A DNA stretch of 64,000 nt from Monosporascus cannonballus (lineage: Eukaryota > Ascomycota > Sordariomycetes > Xylariales): positions 1 through 64,000 of the forward strand of contig QJNS01000129.1 in the NCBI GenBank assembly GCA_004154925.1, written 5' to 3'. The notes under the pieces were generated by a model. The model was not told where the DNA came from. It saw only the letters and a program-made list of their open reading frames with translations, and ran no database searches. Positions within the stretch are counted from its first letter, which is position 1, and each line of letters opens with the position of its first letter. Shown here one piece after another: positions 33,938-46,800 of the stretch. A program made the position numbers and the translations under genes.

Positions 33938-34067
33938 GCCCGGTTAGCTCAAGTAAGAACATCCCACGTCTGTATACTGGGGAAATCAAATCACTAACAT
34001 CAAAACTAGTCGGTAGAGCGTGAGACTCTTAATCTCAAGGTTGCGGGTTCGACCCCCGCATCGGGCT
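33938..34067 (+). tRNA. tRNA-Lys (anticodon CUU) interrupted in the D-loop
   Basis: The 5' part is 33938-33952 and the 3' part 34010-34067. Removing the 57 nt between them leaves 73 nt with a perfect cloverleaf. The acceptor stem is GCCCGGT/ATCGGGC with one G-T pair and discriminator T. The D-stem is GCTC/GAGC, with GG in the loop. The anticodon stem is TGAGA/TCTCA, with loop CTCTTAA (CUU anticodon). The variable loop is AGGTT and the T-stem GCGGG/CCCGC, with TTCGACC. Box B (GGTTCGACCCC) is intact; box A (TAGCTCA...) is split by the insert after its first eight bases. There is no insert at the normal intron site 37/38. A T-run terminator starts near 34110. Without removal of the insert the D-arm cannot form properly. 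It is either an unusual functional gene or a recently interrupted one; the flawless stems argue for function. Confidence 0.85.
33953..34009 (+). other. Spliceosomal-type intron inside the tRNA-Lys D-loop
   Basis: 57 nt, the usual size of introns in this window. It begins GTAAGAAC, has CTAAC at 33994-33998 (branch A twelve bases before the end) and ends AACTAG. These match the 5' splice site, branch site and 3' splice site of the introns in neighbouring protein genes. Strict GT-AG removal leaves GCTCAATCGG in the D-loop. Because of the local AG repeat, shifting the cut by one or two bases leaves GCTCAGTCGG. The A15 produced by GT-AG removal could pair with U48 of the variable loop (Levitt pair). 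Confidence 0.7.
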
Positions 34068-34106
34068 CAATTCCCGATGCACCTCTTCAACGAGGTACTT
34101 CGAATC

Positions 34107-43862: not shown

Positions 43863-46800
43863 ATGCTGTCCAATCCACTTCAGCGGTTCTCGCCGTATCA
43901 TACGCTGCCCGCGACGACGTTTAATCATGTCTCGCAAAGCCATATTCACTCGGCTGGCATAGATACATTCGGCCACGGTTCTCAGTATACCCTCCAGCAT
44001 CTTCAACAGCACGTAGGAGTGCATGCGCCTCACCTGGCGCGGGCACCACAGCCGAAGCATCGCCAGCACCCCTATGCCGGCCCGACCACACGATCGACCA
44101 GCGCAGGTGGTCCCATCCGAAGAAGAATTAGCAGGGCTTGTGATCAGTGCAACCAGCTTAGGACGAAATGCGATGGACAGCATCCTTGTGCCCATTGCAT
44201 AGGTGGGTAACGGCGTAAACACGTCAACGCCGGCACAGGAAGAACTAACGATTATAGAATTCGGTCTTGGCTGCGAGTATATCCGCGAGAGGAAGAAGCG
44301 GGGGAAGGCATCACGCAAGGACTTGGCCCAGCAAGCAGCCGCACAAGCAGCAGCCTCAGCTACCTCTCAGGATGGCTCGAAATCCCCAAACCAGGCCGAA
44401 GAGGAGGCGGGCTCCTCGGATCCAAGGGCGGAAACTCCCTCCGCAGCTCAGACGGAACAACAACCAAGCTCCACGGAGAAGCTGCTAAACGACATCGGTG
44501 AAGATACCCTGCAGCGTAGCCGAAGGACTGGCAGCCTCGACACTCTAGCGGAGCTGAGCTCTCACCAATCCCATATTCCAACGCACGGCGGCGCCATAGA
44601 AAACGATCACCTCGACAGTCCAACATCGCTAGATCTTAACAGTTTTGGGAACGTCCAGAATCCTTATGAAAGGCAGGGCTTGGGAACACACATGATGGCG
44701 GGACCGGCGCATCCGACCTACGGCTCCGGTCAGGGCACTATATCCAGCTATCCCGAGATCCCCTATGCTCTGCAGACACAGAGCCCGAACAATTTCTCGA
44801 CGAACCCTCCGACGACGTTCCGCATCGGTACCAGTCCTATCAGCGCATATCCGATGGCTGCGGAAGCCGCCTCGCCCCCGTGGATGTCTATCTCATCGCC
44901 CCCGCCCCGATACCCGTCGCAAATTCCACAAAACAACTACCACCAGCAACTCCGTTATCCTGTGCTCAACCCCCTAATCCCGCACCTTGGAAATATAATC
45001 CCCCCGTCCCTAGCCTGTGATTTGATCGACCTCTATTTCGCAAGCTCCTCCTCGGCCCATGCGCATCCGATGTCACCCTATGTCCTGGGCTTCGTCTTCC
45101 GAAAAAGATCGTTCCTCCACCCCAGCAAGCCAAGACCATGCCAGCCCGCCCTGCTGGCCAGCATCCTGTGGGTAGCGGCACAGACCAGCGACGCCGCGTT
45201 CCTGACCGGCATTCCCTCGGCGAGGGGCAAGATCTGCCAGAAGTTGCTCGAGCTGACAGTTAACCTATTAAAACCGCTCATCCACACGCCTTCCGGAGAT
45301 GCCTCGCCGGCAACTACTCCGGTGGTCGACGGAGTCGCGCTGGGAGGACTCGGAGTCGCGATGTCGGGCTCCCTAGCCCCCGAAAGCTTCGCAGGCAGCA
45401 TCACGGGCGAATCCGGTGCTTTCGGGGCTGCGGGCACCCTGGACGACGTTATCACCTACATCCATCTCGCCACCGTAGTTTCCGCGAGCGAGTACAAGGG
45501 CGCCAGTCTCCGGTGGTGGAACGCGGCTTGGTCGCTAGCTAGGGAGCTGAAGCTCGGCCGCGAGCTTCCCACCGCCGCGCCCCCGAACGGAATCACCGAG
45601 GCCGACGCCGATGTCAACGTTGAGGACGAACTCAGCAACAAAGTGAACCCCGGCATGGTCACCGAGGAGGAGCGCGAGGAGAGACGACGGATATGGTGGC
45701 TCGCATACATCGTGGACCGTCATCTAGCCCTCTGCTATAACCGGCCGCTCTTCCTGCTCGACATCGAGTGCGAGGGGCTGTACCAGCCGATGGACGACAC
45801 GGACTGGCAAAACGGCAACTACGAGGCATACGCGACGGACCCTGCGCTCAGCGAGCAGGGCGAACCGAGTCATACGAGGGTACGGGGCCCGCACTTCGAG
45901 TGCAGCGGCCACAGCATATTCGGCTACTTCCTACCCCTGATGACCATCCTAGGCGAGATCGTCGACCTGCATCACGCGCGAAACCACCCCCGCTTCGGCG
46001 TCGGCTTCCGCTCAGCGAGGGAGTGGGACGACCAACAGGCCGAGATCGTCCGGCACCTCGAGACGTACGAGCAGAGCCTGAAGGCCTTCGAGCAGAAGCA
46101 CTTCCACGCCAACCCCGACGACGAGAACGACCAGTCGGCGACGCTGGAGATGCCGAGCGAGCTCGGCAACATCAGCTCGCCGTCGGGGCGGTCGGTGCAC
46201 ACGAGCTCCTCGCGCATGACCGAGTCGGACATCCAGACGCGCATCGTCATGGCCTACGGCACGCACGTCATGCACGTGCTGCACATCCTGCTCACGGGCA
46301 AGTGGGACCCCATCAACCTGCTCGACGACAACGACCTCTGGATCTCGTCGCAGGGCTTCATCACGGCCACGAGCCACGCCGTGTCGGCCGCCGAGTCCAT
46401 CAACAGCATCCTCGAGTACGACCCGGGCCTAGAGTTCATGCCCTTCTTCTTCGGCATCTACCTGCTGCAGGGCTCGTTCCTGCTGCTCCTCATCGCCGAC
46501 AAGCTGCAGCTCGAGGCCTCGGCCAGCGTCGCCCGCGCGTGCGAGACCATCATCCGCGCCCACGAGGCTTGCGTCGTCACCCTCAACACGGAATACCAGG
46601 TATGTGGCTTTCCGGGATGGCCATTCGAACTCTTATACTAACAAGCGCCCTCCCAGCGTAACTTCAGCAAGGTGATGCGCAGCGCCCTCGCCCAGGTCCG
46701 CGGCCGCGTGCCCGAGGACCTCGGCGAGCAGCATCAGCGCCGCCGCGAGGTCCTGGCGCTGTACCGCTGGACCGGGGATGGCACCGGCCTGGCCCTATGA
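43863..46800 (+). CDS. xlnR: XlnR/Xyr1 xylanolytic transcriptional activator
   Basis: Three exons (43863-44202, 44258-46599, 46657-46800) with 55- and 57-nt introns give 941 residues, the expected length for Xyr1/XlnR. The N-terminus [12 protein letters not shown] and [20 protein letters not shown] are characteristic. The Zn2Cys6 cluster uses C93, C96, C103, C109, C112 and C119, split by intron 1 between C112 and C119, then [18 protein letters not shown] Gln/Ala/Ser-rich linker follows, then the fungal transcription factor domain with [20 protein letters not shown] and [14 protein letters not shown]. The C-terminal segment reads [18 protein letters not shown], then [17 protein letters not shown]. 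It activates xylanase and cellulase genes in response to xylose and related inducers by binding GGCTAA-type sites in the nucleus. The gene is intact and markedly GC-rich in its second half compared with its flanks. Confidence 0.97.

Follow-up and report, generated by a model that had tools for sequence, protein, structure and literature searches.

The window (the whole stretch of DNA analysed, 64,000 nt, positions 1-64000 of contig C44 in a genome assembly of 88.8 Mb and 618 contigs) contains a tRNA-Lys(CUU) gene at positions 33938-34067 whose D-loop is interrupted by a GT-AG insert and whose 3′ end is followed by a structured trailer and by runs of T. The individual features are as follows.

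33938..33952, + strand: exon 1 of tRNA-Lys(CUU), comprising the acceptor 5′ strand, bases 8-9, the D-stem 5′ strand, A14 and A15; the same in 5/5 intact copies
33945..33952, + strand: 5′ part of box A, as presumed from its usual position; in the sequence the intron separates it from the 3′ part (34010 onward)
33953..34009, + strand: spliceosomal-type intron with GT-AG ends, 57 nt long, inserted into the D-loop at tRNA positions 15/16
33953..33958, + strand: 5′ splice site GTAAGA (GTAAG in 5/5 intact copies)
33994..33998, + strand: branch site CTAAC, whose branch A (33997) stands 12 nt from the end of the intron
34007..34009, + strand: 3′ splice site TAG, read from the sequence
34010..34067, + strand: exon 2 of tRNA-Lys(CUU), comprising the remaining D-arm, the anticodon arm (CTCTTAA), the T-arm, the acceptor 3′ strand and discriminator T73; the same in 5/5 intact copies
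34046..34056, + strand: T-arm, with the sequence GGTTCGACCCC, presumably box B
34046..34106, + strand: predicted three-way junction, closed by GGTTCGA (34046-34052) with TCGAATC (34100-34106)
34058..34080, + strand: predicted alternative hairpin of GCATCGGG (34058-34065) with CCCGATGC (34073-34080), which sequesters the acceptor 3′ strand
34068..34106, + strand: conserved structured 3′ trailer of 39 nt (39-41 nt across the five copies, mean identity 0.94)
34081..34096, + strand: trailer hairpin of ACCTC (34081-34085) with GAGGT (34092-34096), with one compensatory change in copy L012
34110..34122, + strand: T-runs (TTTT C TTTTTTTT), a probable polymerase III terminator judged from the sequence

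When the insert is removed from the window ARAGORN reports a tRNA-Lys(ctt) with a full cloverleaf, and it reports no tRNA in the intact 64-kb window. The Rfam tRNA model matches 34004-34059 only, with a score that equals the gathering score exactly, and nothing but tRNA rises above threshold in an Rfam scan of the window. An earlier note on this DNA had described a complete tRNA-Lys cloverleaf after excision of 57 nt, an insert in the D-loop within box A rather than at 37/38, and the hallmarks of an mRNA intron (GTAAGA, CTAAC, AACTAG and the 57-nt length). All of this holds, as ARAGORN agrees for the window copy and the four other intact copies, the insert lies at 15/16 in all five intact genes, and the signals can be read directly, with the branch A 12 nt before the last intron base. 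Two junction registers had been proposed, both compatible with the sequence alone, and CTCAA|TCGG is the GT-AG cut among them. This junction leaves A15, which would make a fitting partner for U48 of the variable loop (AGGTT) in the R15:Y48 pair of tRNAs. The pair is named in PMC3978253.

A 21-base anticodon-arm pattern (≤3 mismatches) occurs at eight places genome-wide, namely five intact tRNA-Lys(CUU) genes on five contigs (C44, C154, C300, C596 and C605), two degenerate copies (C59 and C387) and one unrelated stretch (C449). A broader anticodon-to-T-arm pattern (≤3 mismatches) returns the five intact genes and one tRNA-Arg, and a DNA search using exon 2 plus the trailer as query returns the five intact genes and C59. 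None of these three genome-wide searches yielded an uninterrupted tRNA-Lys(CUU) gene. The same D-loop site is interrupted in 5/5 intact genes, by introns of 57, 52, 56, 53 and 51 nt, and the count of intact copies that the earlier note had called for thus stands at five, all interrupted. Their joined exons read as tRNA-Lys(CUU) with a full cloverleaf and CUU anticodon in ARAGORN (5/5 intact, 0/2 degenerate copies). An assembly error behind the insert is unlikely, as the five loci lie on five contigs with differing flanks.

Degenerate copies had been named in the earlier note as a point against its reading; two of these do exist, but five intact copies carry the intron and the claim stands. Both degenerate copies (L014 on C59 and L015 on C387) retain an intron-like sequence starting with GTAAG, and their joined sequence gives no tRNA. 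A decayed trailer is still present in C59. By eye, C387 shares its upstream sequence with C154 and looks like a duplicate of it.

Within five ORF stretches of the window AAG outnumbers AAA by 72 to 27, and on these window codon counts AAG must be decoded in this genome. The comparison of the copies suggests that the five tRNA-Lys(CUU) genes are real and needed. It is very unlikely that they form a non-functional or SINE-like tRNA-derived family, with the working tRNA-Lys(CUU) missing from the assembly or too divergent to be found. Such a family would account for the two degenerate copies, and another repeated tRNA-like family is present in the genome. A tRNA-Lys(UUU) gene was likewise not recognised genome-wide with three patterns, which suggests that tRNA genes may escape the search or be absent from the assembly (the missed gene may have a canonical intron, another sequence or lie in an assembly gap). 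However, the exons are 100% identical in the five copies while flanks and introns are unrelated, the anticodon-to-T-arm pattern yields no other Lys(CUU) gene at ≤3 mismatches, and AAG has to be read. Decayed pseudogenes are ruled out by the identical exons.

For the remaining tRNA genes, 42 genome matches to the tRNA model were obtained and 36 were read, of which 33 are on contigs other than the mitochondrial-like C93 and C392. Eight of these 33 are standard tRNAs and four of the eight have anticodon-loop introns, indicating that ordinary tRNA splicing operates in this genome. The other 25 (L033, L035 and L037-L059) all belong to a single repeated tRNA-like family. Its flanks are conserved, with AACAAA on the 5′ side and a hairpin such as CGGAGGTGCGTCGTAAA... 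on the 3′ side, and its members show numerous C-to-T and G-to-A differences; it is probably a tRNA-derived SINE hit by RIP. Searches for further D-loop insertions gave 65 TRGCYCARGTRNG sites genome-wide, three of them known Lys(CUU) copies and 62 read as loci, among which only the window and C154 produce a joined tRNA. Five of the 26 AGNNGGTAGAGCG sites are Lys(CUU) and ARAGORN finds no tRNA at the other 21. With 2 mismatches allowed, intact TTAGCTCAGTTGGTAGAGCG occurs once, in a tRNA-Phe-like stretch (L063 on C556). This stretch has an anticodon-loop insert and an odd T-arm, and ARAGORN does not accept it. D-loop-intron tRNAs beyond these D-arm types and intron sites may exist.

Each of the five intact introns retains GTAAG, a YTAAY whose A stands 11-13 nt from the intron end, and YAG. 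The 3′ splice site is TAG in three copies and CAG in two, and the branch site is ACTAAY in four and ATTAAC in one. No shuffled intron out of 200,000 contained all three signals, and a scan of both strands of the 64-kb window for GTAAGR..YTAAY..YAG at this spacing has a single match, the tRNA insert itself; a chance origin of the signals is ruled out, since five copies share the same ones. Mean pairwise identity across the five copies is 1.00 for the exons and 0.94 for the first 39 nt of the trailer. For comparison, and with the caveat that gapped alignment lifts the shuffled level, identity is 0.69 in the intron body (shuffled 0.69), 0.76 in the last 20 nt of the intron (0.71), 0.72 in the 60 nt upstream (0.71) and 0.69 downstream (0.71). 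Introns and flanks thus have no visible similarity, unlike the exons, the trailer and the splice signals. With the body at the shuffled level and GTAAG invariant, selection appears to act on the intron signals and not on the body. Gene conversion may explain why the exons are alike, but not the sparing of the signals alone inside the introns.

For fungal U3 introns one survey gives GTRWGT donors in 88/136 canonical cases and YAG acceptors, as well as a fungal branch consensus of RCTRAY with 6-36 nt from branch to acceptor (PMC5832005). The tRNA-Lys(CUU) introns fit these published signals except at +6, which is A or G, and in the one ATTAAC. The base before the cut is A, and the commonest bases at +6 and before the cut would be T and G. 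Elsewhere in the window, an XlnR-type regulator gene lies at 43863-46797, apparently in three exons. Its ORF at 44203-46638 is 96% identical to a Monosporascus sp. MG133 protein (≤80% for other named Xylariales), and both of its introns, placed roughly, have CTAAC near YAG. On this protein match the source of the DNA is taken to be Monosporascus or a close relative within the Xylariales.

If the insert were removed by the tRNA endonuclease its junctions should offer a bulge-helix-bulge. In the GT-AG register the strict central helix forms 0/4 pairs in 5/5 copies and relaxed scores are 5-6/8 (5.9 for shuffled introns), and in the other register the central helix reaches ≤3/4 pairs with an outer helix of 0. 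The earlier note, which saw no such structure, was therefore right on this point (strict 0/4 in 5/5, relaxed scores about those of shuffled introns), and an endonuclease-type bulge-helix-bulge intron is rejected, as the motif is not formed at the junctions and the insert also lies at 15/16, not 37/38. That the intron nonetheless belongs to the endonuclease pathway, its mRNA-like signals being incidental, is extremely improbable. C. merolae does have ectopic introns in tRNA D-loops (PMC3978253), and canonical tRNA introns occur in the genome studied here, but neither register offers a bulge-helix-bulge in any of the five copies, and this route does not explain why GTAAG, YTAAY and YAG are kept amid saturated bodies. 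A self-splicing group I or II intron is rejected as well, given a length of 51-57 nt and no Rfam match beyond tRNA above threshold in the window; the catalytic core of such introns normally takes hundreds of nucleotides.

Together this makes it well supported, from the genomic signals, that all tRNA-Lys(CUU) genes found have a D-loop intron of spliceosomal type (GT-AG), and most likely that it is the spliceosome that removes it, in line with the reading of the earlier note. Several points count against the account: the intron splits box A, exon 1 is just 15 nt plus the leader, polymerase III transcripts lack the usual cap, the donor departs from the commonest bases at +6 and before the cut, one of the five branch sites is ATTAAC, the tRNA-splicing pathway in this genome serves other tRNAs (4/8 nuclear tRNAs), and no further tRNA with such an intron turned up among the sites searched.

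Box B is intact and box A is split by the insert, and three of the five copies read GTAAGG -> GG near the split box A. A run of at least four T starts 4-11 nt behind the trailer in 5/5 copies, and no copy (0/5) has TTTT in the stretch from exon 1 through the trailer, which is weak evidence given such short introns. TTTT does occur inside the intron of the degenerate C59 copy, and there is none in that of C387. Transcription by polymerase III is most likely, as it fits box B and the T-runs, without being proven by them. Polymerase II seems an improbable substitute. The split box A speaks for it, as does the normal coupling of spliceosomal splicing to polymerase II, whereas the placement of the T-runs 4-11 nt past the trailer with no internal TTTT (5/5) and the intact box B do not. 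There is also no common upstream element in the aligned 20 nt, with upstream identity over 60 nt about that of shuffled sequence, and introns of this kind occur in a gene normally read by polymerase III, namely U6.

The best U6 snRNA match of the genome (C61, L164:85-146) carries a 62-nt GT-AG insert, GTAAGTT...CACTAACATTCCTTGTAG, between ACAGAGAAGAT and TAGCATGG, with the branch site CACTAAC and a 3′ end of TAG. A box-B-like GCATTCGATTC lies inside this insert. A second match (C593, L165) has no insert, differs in the ACAGAGA region and looks altered, and a third (C467) falls below the family cut-off. As judged from its sequence, U6 would be a precedent in the same genome for an mRNA-type intron in an RNA normally made by polymerase III.

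Each of the five genes has a conserved structured trailer of 39-41 nt before the T-run. RNAalifold predicts from the five copies a three-way junction of GGUUCGA/UCGAAUC, GCAUCGGG/CCCGAUGC and ACCUC/GAGGU, with two further weak pairs that not every copy can form. For the 20 main pairs, 100/100 cells are paired (27-54% when shifted by 1-3 columns), and the two hairpins alone have a folding z of -5.7 (0/200 shuffles as good). The compensatory change at one pair (L012) is equalled by 116/500 shuffles, so covariation adds little. In 5/5 copies the trailer is exactly complementary to the acceptor strand over 8 pairs and to GGTTCGA over 7 pairs.

Without a leader, predicted acceptor-stem pairing in the five copies is 0.68-0.85 for spliced RNA with the trailer, 0.09-0.43 for unspliced RNA with the trailer, and 0.80-0.91 for unspliced RNA with the trailer cut to 3 nt. 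With an 8-nt leader spliced acceptor pairing is 0.87, 0.79, 0.62, 0.08 and 0.01 (L009-L013), which is clean in 3/5. The leaders of L012 and L013 can pair with the tRNA start and both copies are low even when spliced; L013 with the 8-nt leader is also low (0.11) unspliced without the trailer. By eye, a small hairpin with tRNA bases 1-2 is possible in both (GCTGC TCTG GCAGC; GCAGC TTCG GCTGC). Shuffled trailers with the 8-nt leader give an acceptor pairing of 0.14-0.60 unspliced and 0.42-0.71 spliced, and the real trailer lies below the shuffled mean for unspliced RNA in 5/5 copies (0.00-0.36) and above it for spliced RNA in 3/5. Shuffled introns with the real trailer and the 8-nt leader give 0.62, 0.57, 0.25, 0.04 and 0.01 (L009-L013), indicating that the real introns shift the balance towards the alternative fold in L009-L011 and have no such effect in L012 and L013.

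These predictions make a folding checkpoint a good hypothesis rather than a result, in which the trailer might delay end processing by RNase P and tRNase Z until splicing; we put this forward tentatively as the least certain part of the account. It is quite conceivable that the intron is spliceosomal but that the trailer is an extra promoter, a transcript stabiliser or a simple polymerase III 3′ end structure and not a processing timer. The trailer sequence TTCGAATC resembles the box B consensus, in L012 and L013 the fold switch varies with the length of the leader, and unspliced acceptor pairing is reduced by shuffled trailers too (means 0.14-0.60). Against such a role, the 8-pair and 7-pair complements are exact in 5/5 copies and unspliced acceptor pairing with the real trailer is below the shuffled mean in 5/5 (0.00-0.36). 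Moreover, the first run of at least four T lies within 9 nt in 6/8 other nuclear tRNA genes (at 40 in Arg-CCU and at 81 in Val-AAC), leaving no room for such a trailer in those six.

Taken jointly, needed genes, polymerase III transcription, spliceosomal intron removal and a trailer that delays end processing are, with good probability, the best explanation of the locus. Polymerase III would transcribe each gene up to the T-run behind the trailer, and the trailer, by pairing with the acceptor strand and the T-arm, would probably keep the 3′ half in the alternative fold, which would keep RNase P and tRNase Z from acting first. The spliceosome would then excise the intron at CTCAA|TCGG, and the spliced RNA would fold as a normal cloverleaf and have its ends trimmed. 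A stricter version of this is more speculative. In it the three-way junction of the trailer would conceal the acceptor strand and the T-arm, and the cloverleaf could win only once the spliceosome had taken out the intron. Splicing would thereby license the tRNA, and both the supply of the tRNA that reads AAG and, through it, translation would be tied to spliceosome activity.

Splicing of tRNA and of mRNA are treated as separate pathways, and if this account is true tRNA-Lys(CUU) joins both, the cell would need the spliceosome for its supply of lysine tRNA, and mRNA-type introns in small structured RNAs would extend from U6 and U3 to tRNA. The genes would also be a natural system in which to ask how a short, folding and probably uncapped RNA is dealt with by the spliceosome. 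They would further show how splicing gets ordered ahead of end trimming, a question that the trailer makes directly testable. What appears new here is the extension of the mRNA-type intron in a small structured RNA to tRNA as a host class; the conserved structured trailer before the T-run of each gene is an observation of the present analysis, as are the other gene copies and the U6 intron, none of which the earlier note mentions. No spliceosomal intron in a tRNA gene is described among the literature matches listed, which lie mostly outside subscription journals and bioRxiv, and a printed report is possible. Exact patterns run against viral and bacterial/archaeal collections gave no fungal relative.

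Like the canonical 37/38 nuclear tRNA introns (of yeast, and the four here), the D-loop intron makes splicing necessary for a tRNA gene, but it differs from them in its site, its signals and the lack of a bulge-helix-bulge. The ectopic and permuted tRNA genes of Cyanidioschyzon merolae also have a D-loop insert in a nuclear tRNA gene; those inserts are removed by the endonuclease via a bulge-helix-bulge, which does not form in tRNA-Lys(CUU) (PMC3978253). Fungal U3 snoRNA introns share canonical spliceosomal signals and an essential small RNA as host. According to a 2017 study (PMC5832005), frequent interruption of small structured RNAs is known for U3 and U6 alone, and introns of paralogous U3 genes nearly always resemble each other closely; the tRNA-Lys(CUU) introns are alike in their signals only. 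The U6 intron likewise places GT-AG and a CTAAC-type branch site in a short, structured RNA that polymerase III normally transcribes. The U6 intron is explained by reverse splicing near the catalytic bases of U6, an explanation inapplicable to tRNA-Lys(CUU), and it is reportedly treated by Tani and Ohshima 1989 and by Canzler et al. 2016. An mRNA-type intron in U6 is present in fission yeast and in scattered other fungi, according to PMC10484740. Unlike in U6, the host here is a tRNA, all five gene copies are interrupted and each carries a structured trailer.
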